Notes under the pieces: generated by a model
What the model saw: the letters and a program-made list of their open reading frames with translations, nothing else
Told to the model about the DNA's origin: nothing
Databases searched by the model: none
DNA from: Curtobacterium poinsettiae
GTDB taxonomy: Bacteria; Actinomycetota; Actinomycetes; Actinomycetales; Microbacteriaceae
Assembly: GCF_025677645.1 (NCBI RefSeq)
Contig: NZ_CP106880.1
Coordinates: 1-64,000, forward strand
DNA length: 64,000 bases
Direction: 5' to 3'
Position numbers and translations under genes: made by a program
Shown here: positions 5,263-43,794 of the stretch, one piece after another
Layout: each line of letters starts with the position of its first letter
How positions within the stretch are numbered: the first letter of the stretch is position 1

Positions 5263-5844
5263 CTACCGTTCTCGTTCGTCGCCGCCGCGCTCGAGATCAC
5301 GGATGCGCTGCTGCTCCCGTTCGCGGTGCTGCTGCTCACGCATCTGCTGCTCCCGGTGCTGCTGTTCCGCTGCCGGCGACGGCTGCTGCTGGGTGGGGGC
5401 GTCCTGCTCGCGTGCCGCCGATGCGGGCGCGGCCGTGCCGTCGGCGTGACGGGTGTACTGCTCGGGCGGCTGGTTCGTCGCGTCGCGTTCCCATGCCGGC
5501 GTGACGCCGTCCGCGGCAGTCGGGGGCAGGTTCGTGGCGTCGCGTTCCCACTTCGGCATGTTCGTCGGGTCGCCAGTGTGGCGGGCGGCGGCGCGGTCTG
5601 CCTGCTGGCGGTCGCGGTCGGTCTGCTTCTGGGCCTGCTCACGATCCCGGTCGGCCTTGCGCTGGGCGTCGCGGGCGGCGTACTCGGCTTCACGTTCCGC
5701 CTTCCGCTGGGCGTCCTGCTGCTGCCGGCGGCGCTCGTCGTTCGCGCGCTGCAGGGTGCGGCCGAGCTCGTTCGCGACGGTCTGGCCGGCGCGGCCGGCG
5801 TGGCGGCCGACGTGGTCGAGGGTGTCGTCGATGGGGTCGCTCAT
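5263..5844 (-). other. Possible internally initiated C-terminal TraA product
   Basis: Inside traA an in-frame ATG (5844-5842) is preceded by a strong ribosome-binding site (GGAAGGA, with AAGGA six bases before the ATG). Translation there would give a 193-residue protein starting MSDPIDDTLDHVGRHAGRAG, made of a highly charged coiled coil and a low-complexity tail. The segment before this ATG resembles a natural gene end. Either an ancestral separate gene fused to traA, or traA yields two products, as known for some relaxase and primase genes. Confidence 0.4.
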
Positions 5845-8800
5845 GATGCTTCCTTCCGAGGTGATGCGGCGTGCTGCGGTCGTGGCTTCCTGGATCTGAG
5901 TCTGCGCGCGGTCGAGGATCGCCTGCCGTGCGGTGCCGGCGATCTCCTGCGCGTGCTGCTGGTAGTGCTCTCGCGTCGACGGTTCCACTTCCGGCGCCGT
6001 CGACAGCGCGGCCGCCTTGTGGAGCGCGGTCACGCGTTCCTGCAGGTGGTCGGCGACGGGGTTCCCGCGAAGCTTCTCCGGGACGGCCTGCGGTTCGGAC
6101 GGGTCGATGCGGTACTTGGTGCGGAGGACGTCGACCTCGGCCGCGGTGCGGTGCCAGTCGAACATCCGCCACGGCTCCGACGGGAGCCGTCCGAGGTCCT
6201 GTGTCCATGCCGGCTGCTCGAGGGCGAGGGCAGCACCGCGCTCCTTCAACCGGGCACCGATGTAGTGGTGCCGCTCGGCGAGGTGGTCGCGCCACTCGGC
6301 GGGGATGAGTTCGTCCTGGTGGCGGCGGCCATCCGCGATCCAAGCCGGCACCCCGTCGACGGCGGGTCGGTCGACAACGCGGACGATGGGCTGGTCGATG
6401 CCCTCGAGGGCCTTCTCGATGCGCCAGTGCAGCACTGCCGGGACGTCGTCTGCGGTAGCGAGTTCGCGCTGCCCGTAGGCGTCGCGGAGGGTCTTGATGG
6501 GGTCGTGGCCGTAATCCTCTGCGTGGCGGAGTGACGCGGCGAGGGCACCCCACGATTCCTGCCCCTCGAGGGACGTCGCGAGCTCGCGGCCAAGGGCGCG
6601 TTCGACGATGGCGCCGGCGCGGAGCTCGTCGGCGCGTTCGGCGACGTAGGCGTGCTCGTCGATGAGGGTCACGACGTCGTCGACGCGGTCCTGTTCGACG
6701 CGGATGGTCTCGTGGGCGGAGAGCAGCCGCTCGGAGCGGGCGGCGATCTGCTCGAGGGCGTCGGGGACGGTTTCGGCGTCCTCGAGCACCAGATACAGCT
6801 CGTTGCGGTCCTTTCCGCGGGACAGGGCCGTGTAGGCGTCCTCACGGCTCATGCCGGCGGTGCCGAGCACATGGGTGCGTTCGGTGGTGAGGCCCTGGGA
6901 GCGGCTGATGGTGCGGGCGTAGCCGAGCTCGACATGCTGAGCGACGTAGCCGGCGGGCAGGACCACCGGTGCCCCGTGCTGCTTGTGTGCCACCGTCAGG
7001 GAGCCGTCGTCGCCGACGGCGGTGACGTGCCAGAGGTCGCCGTTCTTGACGCGGTCGCGGCCGTTCTGGATCCGAAGGGTTGACTCGTTGCGGCGGGTGG
7101 CGACGAGGTCGCCGACGTGTGCGGAGAGGCCGTCGCGGAGGTCCACGGACCGGGTTGTGTCGACGTCGCCGCCGGTCATCCGGAACGCCTGTGCGCGGGC
7201 ATTGAGCTCGGCGACGGTGTCCGCGGTGGGGGCGAGCATGAGTGAGTCGACGCCGGCAGTGGTGTCGTGCTGCCAGTCGCGGAACACCAGGTCCGTCATC
7301 TTCTCGGCGGACCCGCCGACGATGTGGCCGTGTTCCTGGTACCAGGCGAACGGGTCCCCGGGGCGCAGCGGATCACGGAGCCGCAGCGACGCGTCCGCTT
7401 CCGCGGCGTCGCGGAATCGGTGCACGTGCTCGAGGCGCACCGATCCCACTTCGCGGTCGATCAGGCGGAGCGCGCCGCCAGCTTCGACGGCGGAGAGCTG
7501 CCGGTCGTCGCCGATGAGGCGGACGTGTGCGCCGTGTTCCTGCGCAAGTTCCAGCACGTCGCGGAGGCGACGGGTGCCGGCCATGCCGGCTTCGTCGACG
7601 ACGATCACGTCTCCTGGGTGGAGGGCGTACTTCTCGGATACTTCGTCCTGCTGGTGTGCGACGAGGAAGCCGTGAATCGTGGTCGCGTCGATCCCGACAG
7701 CGTCGGAGAGCACCGACGCTGCTGGCGCTGAGGGGGCGAGCCCGATCATGCGGACACCGCCGGCGTCGAGGGCGTCTGCGGCGAGGCGCAGCGCAGTGGT
7801 CTTCCCCGCCCCGGCGGGACCGATACCGGCAACGAGTTCCATGTCGGACGTGGCGAACGCGCGCGCAAGGTCGCGCTGCCCGGCATCGAGGGGACCGTCG
7901 TGGGCGGCTGCGACGCGCTCGAACACGTCGACGTCGATGGGTCGCATGGTGCGGGTTCGGGCTGCGTCGAGGAGGCCGTCCTCGGCGGCGAGGATCGCAC
8001 GCGAGGTGTACAGGGTCCTGCCCTTGTGCTCCAGGTGCGTGTCACCGGCAGCACCCCTGGTGAGCGGCTGGAAGCCTGCGTGCGGGGACGGCGGGGTCAG
8101 CGACACAGATTCGCGGAGCGCCTCGGCGACGATGCGCTCGACGAGCGGTTCCGCGATCGCGCGGTCGCGGACGCGTTCGGACACCCAGTGCCGAGCCTGG
8201 CTGCGGACGACGTTCGCACCCCACACGGCGTTGCGTTCCTCAACCTCACGGAGCACCCGGCGGGTCGCGTCCTGCACGTCGATCGGTGCGCGTTCGACGG
8301 CACTGGCCTGTTTCGCGATGGCCTGCGCGTCGGCGACGATCGACGCGACACGGGCCGGGTCAACGCGGGCCTGCGCTGCTTCACGGATGGCTTGCGGGGA
8401 CCGGACGTGGTCCTTCTGCGGACGGGACTCCAACGTCGCCTGCTGCGCGAGCTTGATGCGCGTCGTGTCATCCGGGGCTCGGCCGTGATCGCGCCGGTAC
8501 TCCGCGACGAGCCGGTCCGTGCTCTGTCGGATCTGCTGGGACCGGGAGGAGAACATGTCGATCTCGTCCGGATTCACCCCCGTGATCTCCATCACGGAAC
8601 GCTTCCCCGGGGAGGGTTCCCGGGCAACGCTGGTGACGCCAAGTCGTTCGCACACCTCGGACACGACAGTCGCGTTGTAGAACTCCGAACCGGCAACGAT
8701 CTCCCGGTGCATCAGCTTCGAGTCGACGGTGCGCCACTTCCCGTCGGACCCCTTCGCCTTGTTCGCGATGACCATGTGGTCGTGCAGTTGCGGGTCACCG

Positions 8801-9573
8801 TTTCGCGAGTCGAAGTGCCGGAACACCGTTGCCGTGATACCGCCCTGCACCTCGAGCTGCGCGACACCGTTCGTGCCGGCGCGGGTCGCGAGTGCGTGCT
8901 GCTCCAGGTACGCGATCGTGTCGCGGACGGCGGTGTCCTGCGCCGCTTCAATAGCCTTCCGTGTGTTCTCGTCACCGAGCGCCCAGAGCACGGAGACGCT
9001 CTTCGGTGGGGAGCAGACCAGGTCAAACCCGGCGACAGCCTGCTGCGTCGGGCGGGAGGCGGCGGTGATGAACTTCCCGAGCTCTTCCTTGTCCGACGCC
9101 TCACGACCCTTCGCCTCACGGAACGCCTGCGCGCCCTCGCGGGAGCGGATCAGACGCCGCTCCTCCGTGTTCGGCTCGTACCCGTTGACCCGCTCGAACG
9201 CGTCGTATCCGGCCTGGATGCGGCCCTGCAGCGAGTTCTCGTCTGCCTTGTACGCGTAGTAGGACCGGCCGAGTTTCGCGGCTTCCTGCGCCTGCTTCCC
9301 GGTCTTCCCCTCCGCGATCGCGTCGGCGATGATGCGGTCCGCGTCGGGGTGCAGCCCCTCACCGAAGAGGGCCTTCATCTGCTCCTCGGAGACCGTCCCC
9401 GACACCCCAAGAAGCTCCGCGCCGCCACCCATCCACCGTCCGGGAGGGTTCCCCTCAGCGGTGTAGTAGTCGCCGAGCTCGCGGTCATGGTCGCGGCGCG
9501 CATCCCCGGTGGCGACCTCGGACGTGTAGTACGTGTACCCGTCCCCGGCGGACAGGACATGCATGGTCATCAT
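5263..9573 (-). CDS. traA: MobF/TraA relaxase-helicase
   Basis: A 1436-residue conjugative relaxase. The N-terminal TrwC-type domain has paired tyrosines at residues 15-16 for nicking oriT, and the metal-binding histidine triad at about residues 253, 264 and 266 (FRHFD...LHDH). A RecD-like SF1 helicase follows, with Walker A GPAGAGKT near residue 625 and a Walker B-like VIVVDEAGM. The C-terminus is a Gln/Arg/Glu-rich coiled coil. The protein nicks one strand at oriT, stays covalently attached and unwinds the plasmid for export by TraG. The start is the first of two adjacent ATGs; ATG 9564 is also possible. The about 440-bp gap upstream is the expected oriT position. Confidence 0.93.
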   Translation of the reverse strand: MMTMHVLSAGDGYTYYTSEVATGDARRDHDRELGDYYTAEGNPPGRWMGGGAELLGVSGTVSEEQMKALFGEGLHPDADRIIADAIAEGKTGKQAQEAAKLGRSYYAYKADENSLQGRIQAGYDAFERVNGYEPNTEERRLIRSREGAQAFREAKGREASDKEELGKFITAASRPTQQAVAGFDLVCSPPKSVSVLWALGDENTRKAIEAAQDTAVRDTIAYLEQHALATRAGTNGVAQLEVQGGITATVFRHFDSRNGDPQLHDHMVIANKAKGSDGKWRTVDSKLMHREIVAGSEFYNATVVSEVCERLGVTSVAREPSPGKRSVMEITGVNPDEIDMFSSRSQQIRQSTDRLVAEYRRDHGRAPDDTTRIKLAQQATLESRPQKDHVRSPQAIREAAQARVDPARVASIVADAQAIAKQASAVERAPIDVQDATRRVLREVEERNAVWGANVVRSQARHWVSERVRDRAIAEPLVERIVAEALRESVSLTPPSPHAGFQPLTRGAAGDTHLEHKGRTLYTSRAILAAEDGLLDAARTRTMRPIDVDVFERVAAAHDGPLDAGQRDLARAFATSDMELVAGIGPAGAGKTTALRLAADALDAGGVRMIGLAPSAPAASVLSDAVGIDATTIHGFLVAHQQDEVSEKYALHPGDVIVVDEAGMAGTRRLRDVLELAQEHGAHVRLIGDDRQLSAVEAGGALRLIDREVGSVRLEHVHRFRDAAEADASLRLRDPLRPGDPFAWYQEHGHIVGGSAEKMTDLVFRDWQHDTTAGVDSLMLAPTADTVAELNARAQAFRMTGGDVDTTRSVDLRDGLSAHVGDLVATRRNESTLRIQNGRDRVKNGDLWHVTAVGDDGSLTVAHKQHGAPVVLPAGYVAQHVELGYARTISRSQGLTTERTHVLGTAGMSREDAYTALSRGKDRNELYLVLEDAETVPDALEQIAARSERLLSAHETIRVEQDRVDDVVTLIDEHAYVAERADELRAGAIVERALGRELATSLEGQESWGALAASLRHAEDYGHDPIKTLRDAYGQRELATADDVPAVLHWRIEKALEGIDQPIVRVVDRPAVDGVPAWIADGRRHQDELIPAEWRDHLAERHHYIGARLKERGAALALEQPAWTQDLGRLPSEPWRMFDWHRTAAEVDVLRTKYRIDPSEPQAVPEKLRGNPVADHLQERVTALHKAAALSTAPEVEPSTREHYQQHAQEIAGTARQAILDRAQTQIQEATTAARRITSEGSIMSDPIDDTLDHVGRHAGRAGQTVANELGRTLQRANDERRRQQQDAQRKAEREAEYAARDAQRKADRDREQAQKQTDRDRQQADRAAARHTGDPTNMPKWERDATNLPPTAADGVTPAWERDATNQPPEQYTRHADGTAAPASAAREQDAPTQQQPSPAAEQQHREQQMREQQHREREQQRIRDLERGGDERER

Positions 9574-15235: not shown

Positions 15236-15646
15236 TTACTTGCGGGGGTCGAGCGTGGTTCCGGTGAGGTGCAGGTGGTCGACCTCGCGGATCAATTCCG
15301 CGTACGCAGCCTGCGCATCGTCAGATCGTTCCGGCTGGTTGGCGAGGTCGTGCCACGTCTGAGTCAGGTGCTGAATGTGGTCGTCCTGCTCGAGCGAGAC
15401 GGGCACCCCATCGGTGGTGACCATGCCCGCATCGCGTCCGTGGTCCTCGTCGTCGGTGCGGACGAAGGTGTCGACGAAGGTTGTGAAGTCCGGCCCGCTG
15501 ATTGCCACCGTGTGGGTCAGGACATAGCCCATACGGACACGGCTTCGAAGGTCCGTGTCTCGCTCACCGATCTTGTTCAACTGGTGGGGAATGTGGTCCT
15601 CGTCCACGACCGGGACAATGGTGGTGAGCGTGTCGATGTGCTGCAT
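15236..15646 (-). CDS. Hypothetical protein behind a structured leader
   Basis: A 136-residue acidic soluble protein starting at ATG 15646 after a GAGAGGGAGAGGAAAG ribosome-binding region. No known domain is recognised; the N-terminus (TTIVPVVDEDHIPHQLNKIGE) and C-terminus (QAAYAELIREVDHLHLTGTT) predict helices. Its main interest is the 5' leader: a structured RNA element ends 25 nt before the start codon, homologous to the one before the DUF3846 gene. The two genes are therefore probably controlled together. Confidence 0.65.
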   Translation of the reverse strand: MQHIDTLTTIVPVVDEDHIPHQLNKIGERDTDLRSRVRMGYVLTHTVAISGPDFTTFVDTFVRTDDEDHGRDAGMVTTDGVPVSLEQDDHIQHLTQTWHDLANQPERSDDAQAAYAELIREVDHLHLTGTTLDPRK

Positions 15647-15670: not shown

Positions 15671-15861
15671 TTTGCCGTGAAGGCGACTTGTCGCCGCTAG
15701 GACGGGAGGGTGTAGTGCAACCCGAAGGGCGGAGGGGGAGAGAATTTCGGCGCGAAATAAGGGAGCGAAGCGACCGCGTGCCGAAAATCTCGGAGGATCC
15801 GGCGGCTTGCCGCTTGCGCGGAACCCGGACGGACGTACGCTGCCGAAGGCTTCACGGCAAA
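15671..15861 (-). ncRNA. Structured 5' leader RNA, copy 1
   Basis: The element is bounded by a perfect 12-bp helix (15671-15682 with 15850-15861). Inside, 15740-15751 pairs with 15780-15791 (one mismatch), and a GGCGAC/GTCGCC hairpin lies at the 3' end. All three helices recur in the 18345-18555 element with different bases but preserved pairing. Several blocks are identical in the transcript (GCCTTCGGC, GTACG, GGTTCCG, TTGCAC, CGTCCTA). It ends 25 nt before the start codon at 15646, so it is a candidate cis-regulatory RNA. Confidence 0.65.
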
Positions 15862-15958
15862 GAAACGGGCCGCAGGCCCAGCAGTGCCGGCGAAGCCGGT
15901 TCCACCCGGAGCGAAGCGACTCCCGGCCCCCGGCCGGAAGCTCTGGGATACTCGTGGC

Positions 15959-16138
15959 ATGACCGAGCACGCAGGACACACCTCCCCGCGGCCGCGCCGG
16001 CGCCCCTTCCGAGCCGCGCAGCGGTTCCTGGATTCGATCGATCCGCTGCTCGACTTCATTGGGGCTGCCGCCGCCTTGGTGCTGGTCATCAACGTGATGA
16101 TCCGGGCGCTCAGCGGCGAGCCCATCGGGATGCTTTAG
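15959..16138 (+). CDS. Small single-pass membrane protein
   Basis: A 59-residue protein (ATG 15959) with a basic Arg/Pro-rich N-terminus and one hydrophobic helix (FIGAAAALVLVINVMI). It is divergent from the leader-controlled gene. No family is recognised and the ribosome-binding site is weak. Confidence 0.45.
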   Translation: MTEHAGHTSPRPRRRPFRAAQRFLDSIDPLLDFIGAAAALVLVINVMIRALSGEPIGML

Positions 16139-16314
16139 CTCTCCCCCTGGCCCGCCGGAGGCGGTGACAGCCGCGAGCTCCGTCGAGCGGCTCCGGGTTG
16201 GGAGGGGCGAAGCCCTTGCCGCCGTGCCCGGAGGGTGCGGCGCAGCCCACGGACAATCAGACGGCCCGATGGGACATTCTCGAGGCCGGATGGGACACTA
16301 ACCGGTGCCGGGTG

Positions 16315-16347
16315 GGCGTGAGGGCCGCTGGCTGCGACCCTCACGCC
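16315..16347. terminator. Terminator after parB
   Basis: GGCGTGAGGG pairs with CCCTCACGCC across a 13-nt loop, 8 bp beyond the parB-like stop on the minus strand. Confidence 0.75.
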
Positions 16348-16354
16348 GGTTCAT

Positions 16355-17821
16355 CTACTCGGCAGGCGTGGCCTCGCCATCCTCCGGCTCTGCGTCGGGC
16401 TGGATGCCTGCGGCGATCTTCTCGACCTGGCTGAGCGGGTAGCCCCACACGGCCAACTGGTTGAGGTAGCCGCGGGAATCGGCGTTCGGGGTGCGCCACC
16501 ACTCACGGTTCGCCGTGTTCTCGAACCCGGCGAACACCACCGCGAGGGACATGTGCAGCCCCTTCGCGGGGTGCTGCTCGACCCACTGGGAGAGCGTGTC
16601 GCCGTCCCATCCGCTCGACTCGATACCGAGCAGACTGCGGGCGCTCACCATGCCGGAGGCGTACCGGGTGCTGGCGTGGCGCGTGAGCGCGATCGCCAGG
16701 AACCGGGCGGCGTCCTTCGGCGCGTTCTTGCGCTGCAGGAGCGTCGCGATCCACTCGCGGCGCACGTCATCGGCGGCGTCCCACGCCTTGTTGTTGGCGA
16801 CCAGCAGCCGACGTGCGGCCTTTCGTTCCTCGGCCTCGGCGGCGCGGTCTTCCTCGGTCGGCTCCGCCTCCGGCGTCCCGCCGACCGGAATGGTCGCGCG
16901 GAACGACTGGTAGCGGGCGTGGTGGGCGTCCGGGGTCGTGCACACCTGCACCGGCTCCGGCGTCCCCCACTGGCTCACCGTCCACGCGGCACCCGCGCAC
17001 TCGGTGTGGGTGTCGGGGTCGAGGCCGTGGCGCTCGGTGTAGTCGGTCACGTCATCGGCGGCGTCGGTGAGGCGGTCCAACGACTCGTAGTCGTCGTCCT
17101 CCCCCACCAACCGCTTACCCGCGGCCACGAGGTCTGCGCGCACCTGCACGCGGGCCTCCCGACGCTCGGCCTCCTGGCGGAGCCGGGCAGCGGTGTGGGT
17201 CAGTTCGTCATCGTCGTACCCCTCCGCAATGCACTCGGTCAGTTCGGTGACCGCGTCGGGGTCACCGTCGAACTCGGCCAGCAGCAGCGCCTGTGTGAAC
17301 GTCGCCTGACCACTGGAGACGGCAGCGGACGCCGTGTCCGACTTCGCCACCGTGAGGGTCTGCTTCACGGTGTCCCGCTTCGTGCCTGTCTCGCGGGCGA
17401 TCGCGGTGACCGACAGGCCCTCGATTTCCAACTGGCGGTACGCGGCGAGCCGGTCACCGTCCGACAGGGCGGTGCGGCGCTCGTTCGCGACCAACTGCTC
17501 CGCGATCCGCTGAGCGGGGGTGTCGTCACGAGCCGTGACGAACACCGGCACCTCGCGGCCCGTCTCACGGGCGGCGAGGACGCGCATCTGCCCGTCGCGG
17601 ACCACCACGGCCCCGTCAGCGTTCCGGTAGCCGATGGTCGGCAGGAGCACCCCGTGGCGCTTCACGGACGCCAGGAACGCCGGGTCGAGGTCAGCCGCGG
17701 TGCGGACGTTGTCCTCGATCACCACGTCCGCGGCGGGCACGTGCACCAGGTTGACGCCGCTCGCGTCGGGCTGGGGCTGGTCGGTCAGGTGGGTGACGGT
17801 GATGTTCTCGGTCATGGTCAT
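16355..17821 (-). CDS. ParB/RepB/Spo0J-like nuclease-partition protein
   Basis: A 488-residue protein. The N-terminal ParB/Srx domain has VPAADVVIEDNVRT, LLPTIGYRNADGAVVVRDGQMR and RIAEQLVANERRTALSD. A helix-turn-helix (LSVTAIARETGTKRDTVKQT) follows at about residues 132-155. The long C-terminus is unlike chromosomal ParB. Such plasmid ParB-like proteins bind centromere-like sites or act as regulators. No ParA lies beside it, so a role in partition is not certain. It is monocistronic, with a terminator on each side. Confidence 0.85.
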   Translation of the reverse strand: MTMTENITVTHLTDQPQPDASGVNLVHVPAADVVIEDNVRTAADLDPAFLASVKRHGVLLPTIGYRNADGAVVVRDGQMRVLAARETGREVPVFVTARDDTPAQRIAEQLVANERRTALSDGDRLAAYRQLEIEGLSVTAIARETGTKRDTVKQTLTVAKSDTASAAVSSGQATFTQALLLAEFDGDPDAVTELTECIAEGYDDDELTHTAARLRQEAERREARVQVRADLVAAGKRLVGEDDDYESLDRLTDAADDVTDYTERHGLDPDTHTECAGAAWTVSQWGTPEPVQVCTTPDAHHARYQSFRATIPVGGTPEAEPTEEDRAAEAEERKAARRLLVANNKAWDAADDVRREWIATLLQRKNAPKDAARFLAIALTRHASTRYASGMVSARSLLGIESSGWDGDTLSQWVEQHPAKGLHMSLAVVFAGFENTANREWWRTPNADSRGYLNQLAVWGYPLSQVEKIAAGIQPDAEPEDGEATPAE

Positions 17822-17847
17822 GTCGTTTGCTACGCTTTCCGGTAGTG

Positions 17848-17898
17848 ACCGGGTGCGGGTCCTGGCAATTACGAGTTGTCAGGAATTCCGCACCCGGT
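17848..17898. terminator. Strong hairpin between the DUF3846 gene and parB
   Basis: ACCGGGTGCGG (17848-17858) pairs exactly with CCGCACCCGGT (17888-17898), and the loop contains a second stem (TCCTG...CAGGA). On the minus strand it lies just after the DUF3846 gene and before parB. Confidence 0.75.
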
Positions 17899-17925
17899 CT
17901 GTTTTGTGGGTGGGACTGCTAGGTG

Positions 17926-18321
17926 TTACTGCTGGCGGAACACTGCGGTCAGCGCTTCCGCCCGGTCGAGCGCCGCACGGGCGTGCTCGAACGCGGCCAG
18001 GACCGCCTTGTACTGATCCGGCGACAGCGACCGGGTGTCCCCGGCCTCGTCGTAGGTCAGGAACAGGACCGTCCCGAACAGCGGCGACGCCGCCCGGGAA
18101 CGGCCGAGGGCGACCGCTGCGACGGTGGCGAGGTCGTTGCGCTCCCCCGCGTACATGCCCTCGTCATCGATCCACGCATCGATCCGGCCGTCGAGGCGGA
18201 CCACGTCCACCAGGCGGCACCCGATCTGCTCCCGCGTGCCCTGCAGGGTCGACTCACGTGCGTTCACGACGACGCCTTCAACCGCACCATCTGCGGTCGC
18301 TCGAATACCCATCAACTTCAT
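17926..18321 (-). CDS. DUF3846 family protein behind a structured leader
   Basis: A 131-residue protein starting at ATG 18321. The pattern fits DUF3846: a short strand (GAVEGVVVNA), LVDVVRLDGRIDAWIDDEGMYAGERNDLATVAA with the conserved acidic and Asn residues, and PLFGTVLFLTYDEAG. DUF3846 proteins are common on phages and plasmids; their activity is unknown. Its 5' leader contains a structured RNA element ending 24 nt before the ATG. Confidence 0.75.
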   Translation of the reverse strand: MKLMGIRATADGAVEGVVVNARESTLQGTREQIGCRLVDVVRLDGRIDAWIDDEGMYAGERNDLATVAAVALGRSRAASPLFGTVLFLTYDEAGDTRSLSPDQYKAVLAAFEHARAALDRAEALTAVFRQQ

Positions 18322-18344
18322 TCCCTCTTCCTCTCCCTTTCGTT

Positions 18345-18555
18345 GTTTGCCCGGGAAGGCACGAAGTGCCGATAGGACGAGGAGCCGGGGTGCAAGCCCA
18401 AAGCGGCGACGCTCCGAGAAGTTTCGACCGGCGCCGTCCATTGACGAAGGAGATGAGCACGACGGCGCCGGTCGAAAGTTCTCGCGTGCGGCGGTGGCGA
18501 CGGCTTGCGGCCCGGAACCTCGTCCGTACAATCGCCGAAGGCTTCCCGGGCAAAC
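18345..18555 (-). ncRNA. Structured 5' leader RNA, copy 2
   Basis: A perfect 14-bp closing helix (18345-18358 with 18542-18555). The long internal hairpin pairs 18416-18438 with 18461-18483 (one mismatch), and a GGCAC/GTGCC hairpin lies near the 3' end. Compared with copy 1 the closing helix has a compensatory extra base pair and changed bases. The internal helix changes GGC/GCC to ACC/GGT with pairing kept. The leader abuts the DUF3846 ribosome-binding site. Single-stranded blocks are shared with copy 1. Confidence 0.68.
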
Positions 18556-18694
18556 AACGAACCCGTCAGGGTTCGACAAGCACTGGCCGGCTTGCCGGCT
18601 CCCCTCAGACCAGAACAGGCCGCCGCCGGCGGTCCGCTTGGATCCCGCGTGCTCGAGGAGCTCGCCGGCGCGCAGAGGCCAGCGAACGTGAAGC

Positions 18695-42807: not shown

Positions 42808-43794
42808 CTATCGGTTGCTATCAGTTGCGATCTGATGGTTCCGTGTGCTGGCGCTGGATTCGAAGGCAGCGTCGAGCGCTCGAGCGTCGCTCCAGAGGGC
42901 CGTGATCCGAGCGAGAATCTCGTCAGCGGTGGCGTCCACGGCACCGAGCTCGTCGTAGGTCTCCTGCAAGGTGAGTTGCGCGAACCGGTACGGTTGGCGA
43001 ACCACCGGTCCGACAGCCTCTCGATCCGTCTCGTGTGCGGCGGCGGCGGCGCGTCTACTGGAGATGATGCTCGTCATCGACCTGCTAGACAAGGTGAGCC
43101 CGGTACGGGCCCAGCCGTGCACGTCTAACGGCAACAGCAGCTGCTCTGCTCGGCGCCACTGCCCCGGCAGTGGCTGCTCGCAGTCATGCTGATCGAGATT
43201 GCCCTTGGTGGGATCGAGCAGGCCGATGACGTCGCCTCTAAATCCGGCCCAGACCAGGCCCACAATCCGCAACCACCGGGTCACCGCGCACGCCGCACAC
43301 GCCGCTGGGTCGTCGGCGGAGGGGACGACCGTGCCGCGGATGCGCACGATGCTCGTCACTGCGACATCGTCCGCCGTGATGGCTTGCGCCTGCTGGCGGG
43401 TCAGGCGCAGTACGCCGAGGAGGACGATGAGGAACGCGTCGCGCCGGCCGCGGAGCCCGATCGGGTACCGGTACTTCGGGATCGCCGCGAGCACCTCGCC
43501 CACAGCATCAGCCTCGGCGTCAGTGAGTGATGGTCGCGGCCACACACGGTCTTCGATGACGGGGAGCGGGTTCAGGTGGCCGGCGGCGAGGTGGTGCGCG
43601 CGGATCGCGCGTCGGCGGAGCCGCTGCGTCGACGCAGCCCCAGGGAACTGGGTCAGGAACTGCTCGATCGTGGCTGCCGTCGCCGGCAGCGGCTCGTGCC
43701 CGGTGGCGCTGCACCACGCTATGAACCTGCCCCAGTGCGCCTCGAGCAGGACCTCCGTGTCGGGGTGAGGTGTGGGTGGGGTGTGCGGGGTCAT
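42808..43794 (-). CDS. Degenerate tyrosine-recombinase-like protein
   Basis: A 328-residue protein from ATG 43794, overlapping the stop of the complete recombinase (ATGA). The order is a SAM-like N-terminal domain (FIAWCSATGHEPLPATAATI) and then GLRGRRDAFLIVLLGVLRLT, matching the start of a tyrosine recombinase catalytic domain (GxRDxALLLLGxxGALR). A later ARTGLTLSSRSMTSII segment follows. The HxxR and Tyr blocks are absent, so it is probably inactive. It may be a DNA-binding partner of the upstream enzyme. Confidence 0.65.
   Translation of the reverse strand: MTPHTPPTPHPDTEVLLEAHWGRFIAWCSATGHEPLPATAATIEQFLTQFPGAASTQRLRRRAIRAHHLAAGHLNPLPVIEDRVWPRPSLTDAEADAVGEVLAAIPKYRYPIGLRGRRDAFLIVLLGVLRLTRQQAQAITADDVAVTSIVRIRGTVVPSADDPAACAACAVTRWLRIVGLVWAGFRGDVIGLLDPTKGNLDQHDCEQPLPGQWRRAEQLLLPLDVHGWARTGLTLSSRSMTSIISSRRAAAAAHETDREAVGPVVRQPYRFAQLTLQETYDELGAVDATADEILARITALWSDARALDAAFESSASTRNHQIATDSNR

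Follow-up and report, generated by a model that had tools for sequence, protein, structure and literature searches.

Why should one plasmid carry, directly ahead of two unrelated genes, two long elements that fold in the same way? The question is raised by contig NZ_CP106880.1 of Curtobacterium poinsettiae (assembly GCF_025677645.1), of which the first 64,000 of 107,927 bases were analysed and are referred to here as the window. Its two elements, each about 200-260 nucleotides (nt) in size, were taken in an initial annotation for structured 5′ leaders of the RNA that follows, perhaps riboswitch-like or trans-responsive. That the minus strand holds two look-alike folded elements is confirmed, and both also occur at 100% in NZ_CP104931.1, a Curtobacterium flaccumfaciens plasmid. 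It is further supported that the structure is under selection, with compensatory change, in a family of elements lying beside several unrelated plasmid genes. The selected strand, however, appears to be the complement of the mRNA, and it bears a candidate −35/−10 pair. We consider it quite probable that the elements are a new family of Frpo-like single-stranded DNA (ssDNA) promoters in Actinomycetota, unrelated in sequence to those described so far.

A fold conserved through compensatory change

The family was assembled by a profile search over fetched loci, which gave 113 places, 83 of them full length. Once identical cores were removed, 80 distinct full-length copies remained; named plasmids and the window contribute 18 of them and other genomes 62. 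Each window element is enclosed by a closing stem (H1), with a mini-hairpin (H2) at its 5′ side, a central hairpin and a hairpin (H4) at its 3′ side. In copy 1 the 12-bp core of H1 ends 24 nt before ATG 15646, and in copy 2 it ends 25 nt before ATG 18321, in accord with the spacing of about 25 nt first proposed, and each element reaches about 40 nt further 5′ than was first described, as two short GC hairpins. The parts of the two copies, and the genes that follow them, are as follows.

15671-15899, minus strand: copy 1 including its upstream hairpins
15887-15899, minus strand: copy 1 upstream hairpin A, CCGGC-TTC-GCCGG (similar GC hairpins are visible, uncounted, upstream of other copies)
15859-15879, minus strand: copy 1 hairpin B, GGGCC-TGC-GGCCC plus a T-rich tract, terminator-like
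15850-15861, minus strand: copy 1 closing stem H1, 5′ arm (TTTGCCGTGAAG)
15842-15850, minus strand: copy 1 mini-hairpin H2, GCC-TTC-GGC
15836-15841, plus strand: copy 1 −10-like TACGCT, on the antisense (putatively transferred) strand
15814-15819, plus strand: copy 1 −35-like TTGCGC, antisense strand, 16 nt from the −10
15740-15791, minus strand: copy 1 central hairpin GAGATTTTCGGC...GCCGAAATTCTC, with a conserved loop
15715-15720, minus strand: copy 1 TTGCAC, conserved and corresponding to the −35 block; no pairing is predicted here
15682-15695, minus strand: copy 1 3′ hairpin H4, GGCGA-CAAG-TCGCC
15671-15682, minus strand: copy 1 closing stem H1, 3′ arm (CTTCACGGCAAA)
15236-15646, minus strand: gene after copy 1, a 136-aa protein with no Pfam match
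18339-18599, minus strand: copy 2 including its upstream hairpins
18586-18599, minus strand: copy 2 upstream hairpin A
18551-18574, minus strand: copy 2 hairpin B, GAACCC-TGAC-GGGTTC plus a T-rich tract
18542-18561, minus strand: copy 2 closing stem H1, 5′ arm, 20 bp (TTCGTTGTTTGCCCGGGAAG)
18534-18542, minus strand: copy 2 mini-hairpin H2
18527-18532, plus strand: copy 2 −10-like TACAAT, antisense strand
18505-18510, plus strand: copy 2 −35-like TTGCGG, antisense strand, 16 nt from the −10
18415-18484, minus strand: copy 2 central 24-bp stem
18390-18395, minus strand: copy 2 TTGCAC, fold partner of the −35 block
18358-18370, minus strand: copy 2 3′ hairpin H4, GGCAC-TTC-GTGCC
18339-18358, minus strand: copy 2 closing stem H1, 3′ arm, 20 bp (CTTCCCGGGCAAACAACGAA)
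17926-18321, minus strand: gene after copy 2, a DUF3846 protein of 131 aa

The closing stem and the 3′ hairpin had been said to persist while their bases differ, and this extends to the family as a whole. On one FastTree tree, H1 and H4 together underwent 52 pair-to-pair changes, counted in the 70 of 80 copies usable for H1 and the 67 usable for H4 (ten were left out for a poorly placed H1, and three more for H4). Watson-Crick pairs occupy 888 of 936 H1 cells in 78 copies, two having been left out, whereas the maximum across 1000 partner shuffles was 793. With a strand-neutral energy model made for this analysis, the 80 copies fold at a mean of −43.1 compared with −30.0 in shuffles, and 68 of them beat all ten of their own shuffles. 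The blocks proposed to be conserved and unpaired fared less well: GGTTCCG is not conserved in the alignment and CGTCCTA is kept in part only, often as CCCTA or CCCTG. TTGCAC has no predicted pairing in copy 1 (probability 0.07 or less), but in copy 2 it pairs with a GCAA block in the 5′ half (probability 1.0), as it does in about half of the copies across the family.

The constrained strand

In a leader RNA, changes that leave an A·C opposition are costly and those that leave G·U are tolerated. Read in the sense direction, the H1 and H4 events comprise 20 changes to A·C and 3 to G·U (tested against a 1:1 ratio, p 0.0005), with raw cells of 25 versus 5 in H1 and 7 versus 0 in H4. An A·C opposition in the sense reading corresponds to G·T on the complement, so that the constraint appears to act on the strand complementary to the mRNA, and the constraint on the mRNA strand that would mark a leader RNA was thus not found.

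These counts bear directly on the notion that the elements are structured 5′ leaders, whether riboswitch-like, attenuating or trans-responsive, that control the mRNA which they head. The placement just before the ribosome-binding site, the conserved helices and their compensatory changes would all suit such a role, and in copy 1 the lowest-energy RNA fold pairs the ribosome-binding site with a pyrimidine tract. As RNA, copy 2 forms a long, almost perfectly paired rod (z −8.6, none of 200 shuffles being as good); copy 1 trimmed to its core gives z −2.7 (25 shuffles), and together with its ribosome-binding site it is unexceptional (z −1.0, 30 of 200 shuffles as good). A loose sense −35/−10 pattern was found in the 140 nt upstream of none of the 80 copies, other promoter types lying outside the pattern, and a terminator-like hairpin followed by T's stands at the 5′ edge of 73 of 80, compared with 12-21 of 80 in eight shuffles. 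No Rfam family matches the window at its gathering score. The antisense promoter candidate within the element, moreover, would serve the gene only if the antisense (putatively transferred) strand folds as ssDNA. The leader or riboswitch was accordingly rejected, on the strand preference, the missing sense promoter pattern and the edge terminator, and we hold it to be improbable; of the original proposal, the selected structure stands and the selected RNA does not.

A candidate promoter on the complementary strand

Read on the antisense strand, 59 of the 80 copies contain TTGNNN-N15/16-TANNNT in the gene-distal half of the element, compared with a shuffle mean of 0.3. A looser form, with a spacing of 15-18 nt, occurs in the sense reading of the same 100 nt in only 8 of 80, and in the other half of the element it was found on neither strand of any of the 80. 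When the putative −10 is placed by its distance from H2, 11 copies with an insertion at H2 being set aside, A2 and T6 are present in all 69 copies that remain and T1 in 63 of them, whereas positions 3-5 are variable. The columns permit one extra base beside H2 in 15 copies, picked by a TC ending, so that they are not blind to T6. The consensus of the bacterial −10 box is TANNNT, and this is the pattern that the aligned antisense columns display. A scan of window positions 10-24 kb (spacing 15-17 nt, TTGC or TTGANC starts) found three occurrences on the plus strand, two of which are the elements, and none on the minus strand.

The geometry of the pair depends on the state of the DNA. In duplex DNA it points away from the gene, whereas on the folded strand it points toward the hairpin base, with the gene template beyond. 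The arrangement expected of an Frpo-like promoter, a predicted ssDNA fold whose −35 and −10 are directed at the hairpin base, is thus found in those same 59 copies.

Orientation relative to the putative transferred strand

If the folded strand is to be the one that enters a recipient, the elements would be expected to have a fixed orientation on their plasmids. Fourteen plasmids were examined: the window's and those at loci L028-L032 and L036-L043. A relaxase gene was identified on ten (the window's, L028, L029, L030, L032, L037, L038, L039, L040 and L042) and was not identified in the fetched sequence of L031, L036, L041 and L043. On the ten, all 20 profile-found elements, partial ones included, lie on the relaxase strand and read toward the relaxase, before reaching the secretion genes, a layout to be expected if the transferred strand is the template. 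Two further genes of the window have the same direction.

5263-9573, minus strand: MobF/TrwC relaxase, toward which both elements point
16355-17821, minus strand: ParB-like gene further downstream, so annotated in NZ_CP104931.1 (no Pfam match in the window protein)

An oriT-like repeat was seen by eye upstream of mobC in seven of the seven mobC plasmids examined, and it may be an oriT, a reading guided by a nick consensus. By the gene layout and this repeat, the plus strand of the window would be the transferred strand. The elements also occupy a position before conjugative leading-region genes, as expected of Frpo-like promoters. The leading genes of plasmid F share this layout, and for these (ygfA excepted) the transferred strand is the template (PMC9849209).

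The genes behind the elements

An open reading frame (ORF) of at least 50 codons begins within 75 nt of 78 of the 80 copies, at a median distance of 27 nt; start codons were assigned by a simple criterion, and the weaker assignments are in part doubtful. Single-linkage blastp divides these ORFs into groups of 20, 18, 10, 8 and 4 plus smaller ones, with representatives that include the anti-restriction protein ArdC, DUF3846, the window's 136-aa protein, the glutaredoxin NrdH and a protein with a ParB N-terminal domain; one singleton is a DUF6349 protein. Members of the 136-aa protein's family, that protein among them, stand behind 10 of the 78 copies that have an ORF. The adjacency to unrelated plasmid genes noticed in the window therefore holds across the family, in which several distinct families of establishment type follow the copies. 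Element-bearing gene runs contain SSB, anti-restriction and ParB-like genes, as does the leading region of F. ArdC is described as being required in the recipient and not in the donor (PMC7213743).

Three smaller points concern the interval between element and gene. The element and ribosome-binding site suggest that the DUF3846 gene of the window starts at ATG 18321, while its start in NZ_CP104931.1 is placed further downstream, at 43758 (about 18267 in the window). A CTTGAC-type sequence, resembling an ordinary −35 region, lies just downstream of some copies (L072, L100, L037:15116-15330 and L071), and a TAACAGTACTAATACCGT-like sequence, perhaps a second control site, stands between element and start codon in L038, L074, L076 and L109.

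A possible mechanism and its alternatives

During conjugation, the plus strand of the window would enter the recipient and each element would fold on itself. The 3′ half of the folded strand would present the −35-like (TTGCGC or TTGCGG) and −10-like (TACGCT or TACAAT) sequences as the non-template strand, and host RNA polymerase could bind the fold, exit through H1 and copy the remaining transferred strand, which is the gene template. With the usual promoter spacing, the start would probably fall in H2/H4, where the side hairpins would keep both strands mutually unpaired; these two hairpins, at the would-be bubble, may hold it pre-opened. Second-strand synthesis would abolish the fold and leave the −35/−10 pair facing away from the gene, and in the duplex the edge terminator-like hairpin would stop read-through, so that the gene would fall silent. 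The outcome would be a burst of establishment proteins (ArdC, DUF3846, ParB-like, NrdH and others). The identity of the transferred strand, polymerase use, start site and switching off all follow by reasoning from the sequence and are offered in that spirit. A broader formulation, whose chances we judge to be evenly poised, is that conjugative plasmids of Actinomycetota possess an ssDNA promoter class of their own. The start would be pre-opened by a four-way junction that two side hairpins make exactly at the bubble site; conversion to duplex would then abolish the promoter, turn it away from the gene and leave the terminator-like hairpin behind, so that several operons would yield a pulse of establishment proteins that limits itself.

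Several observations weigh against ssDNA promotion. The antisense fold is the more stable in 29 of 29 copies tested, but most of this advantage follows from composition: relative to shuffles the mean z is about −1, negative in 24 of 29 with RNA energies and in 18 of 29 with DNA energies. Whole-element folding energy is for this reason given little weight as a test of strand. The share of A·C in the strand-neutral fold, 65%, exceeds only slightly that in shuffles (58-60%), and the assignment of the transferred strand depends on gene layout and on an oriT-like repeat read by eye. As to the promoter pair, the strict signature is missing from 21 of 80 copies, among them the 11 insertion copies, and from all 12 of the more distant copies that were scanned; if the extra base beside H2 is disallowed, A2 and T6 are kept in 54 of 69. 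For the −35 block, pairing is predicted (P > 0.5) in 32 of 59 antisense folds and 27 of 59 sense folds, and not in copy 1. The copies share ancestry, so that 59 of 80 does not amount to 59 independent cases. Finally, the strict pattern was not found upstream of ssb in F, where Frpo2 served as a positive control.

A second alternative is closer in mechanism, namely that the element is a single-strand origin (sso), at which an RNA polymerase primer made on the folded transferred strand starts second-strand synthesis, gene expression being a by-product or absent. The same fold and promoter logic would serve, and Frpo is reportedly, by the title of a 1997 paper of Masai and Arai, involved in transcription and primer synthesis. 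A review passage likewise names it as active in both (PMC9024699), and an sso is known in ICEBs1 (PMC4595007). Priming alone, however, would not need 78 of 80 copies to stand directly before ORFs of several unrelated families, nor up to four copies on one plasmid (L029), and we think it unlikely that this is what the elements are for. An ordinary double-stranded antisense promoter, for a divergent gene or an antisense RNA, has least to recommend it and is very improbable: the −35/−10 pair is intact in duplex DNA too, but it points away from the adjacent gene, the upstream neighbour is co-directional with the element in 16 of 19 cases looked up in annotation tables (18 full length, one truncated), and no reason would remain for the partner arm and H4 to be kept, or for the spacing to the start codon to vary so little.

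Relation to known systems

Promotion from ssDNA, the reading that we prefer, has precedents in plasmids F and ColIb-P9, where the folds of Frpo and ssi are said to rebuild −10 and −35 boxes and expression is early and transient (PMC9849209, PMC11541004). Like Frpo1, Frpo2 and ssi, the present family is a multi-copy structured element that lies before leading-region genes (in their case those for SSB, PsiB and others) and reads toward the tra end. It differs from them in its length of about 200 nt, in the two side hairpins at the presumed start, in its TANNNT-type −10 and in the terminator-like hairpin at its edge, and is known here from sequence alone. Comparison was made with F only, and similarity to the F leading region amounts to matches of 25-26 nt in 7 of 80 copies (E values of 7e-4 to 0.003, perhaps chance), none of them upstream of ssb. 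These fall at L131:9002-9026 and 18317-18342 and are of two types, the edge hairpin with its T tract and a short stretch of the centre (CGCGGCATAT). Among seven scanned stretches of F, the one before the anti-restriction gene has the strict antisense pattern. The element would thus work like Frpo without being a member of its sequence family.

A second comparison is with EGeRS1 of the pLS20 family in Bacillus, which likewise comprises several GC-rich structured copies immediately upstream of the ribosome-binding sites of ardC and further establishment genes (PMC8708921). EGeRS1 of pLS20 is described as lacking a regular or strong ordinary promoter, with read-through prevented. There, the transferred strand is the non-template strand, promotion from ssDNA was judged highly unlikely, and the mechanism was left without explanation (PMC8708921). 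The elements described here are set apart from it by description: they measure about 200-260 nt compared with 400-600 bp (PMC8708921), by their layout the transferred strand would be the template, and a −35/−10 pair is present. The sso of ICEBs1 acts on a transferred single strand (PMC4595007), as the present elements are proposed to do; compared by description, the present family differs in being tied to the start codons of many genes.

The literature, taken as titles and abstract openings with subscription papers mostly outside, yielded no such element and no ssDNA promoters in Actinomycetota. A large survey ran BLAST of Frpo sequences in leading regions (PMC11541004), and its available text contains no words beginning 'Actinomy' or 'Actinobacter'; 'actino' is absent from the text of PMC12826799, and a soil review that mentions Frpo, Actinobacteria and plasmid names them apart in the part available. 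The ssDNA promoters of F have been demonstrated (PMC9849209) and the analogue in Bacillus is without a known mechanism (PMC8708921). With a −35/−10 pair that can be read, a closing stem that covaries and target gene families of which several are recognisable, ssDNA promotion becomes directly testable in another phylum, and the family offers a sequence-based way to find establishment and anti-defence genes, several of which have no known function.

Distribution and further observations

Copy 1 finds 149 places in 93 plasmid records by blastn (E up to 0.1), most commonly in Clavibacter, Curtobacterium and Microbacterium, with others in, for example, Arthrobacter, Cutibacterium and Dietzia. A match is present in 58 of 398 genomes of the host's taxonomic family, the window's own included. 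An exact narrow pattern is confined to two of 394 genomes of the class, the window's own and G1006. The Gulosibacter plasmid pARLON1 has four copies on one strand, each preceding a gene. In the second profile search 16 loci were omitted as duplicates, including, in error, L035, which had no match in the first.

Two other origins for the sequence were rejected. A phage origin rests on matches of only 22-30 nt in five records (E up to 1). A coding or transposon sequence had been set down beforehand as counting against the annotation; matches to copy 2 have no annotated gene beneath them in 26 of 26 rows, and for copy 1, with 60 of 109 records listed, 55 have none, the other five being 27-nt Phaeobacter matches. 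Genes had lain beneath matches in the first copy 1 blastn because that query ran into the adjacent gene.

Some copies lie on Mb-sized contigs (G001:C1:2834503-2834690, G411:C1 and others) and may be integrated elements or chromosomal relics. There is also a more distant subtype that keeps the central GCGGTCGC...CTCCCTTATTTCGC hairpin (L028:14841-14941, L028:18988-19088, L039:47035-47149, L040, L042, L043, L113, L120-L122 and L125) and, by eye, apparently has its own closing stem (e.g. CCTGTCTGGC/GCCAGACAGG in L028). Its members precede DUF3846, ParB, ArdC and NrdH genes.

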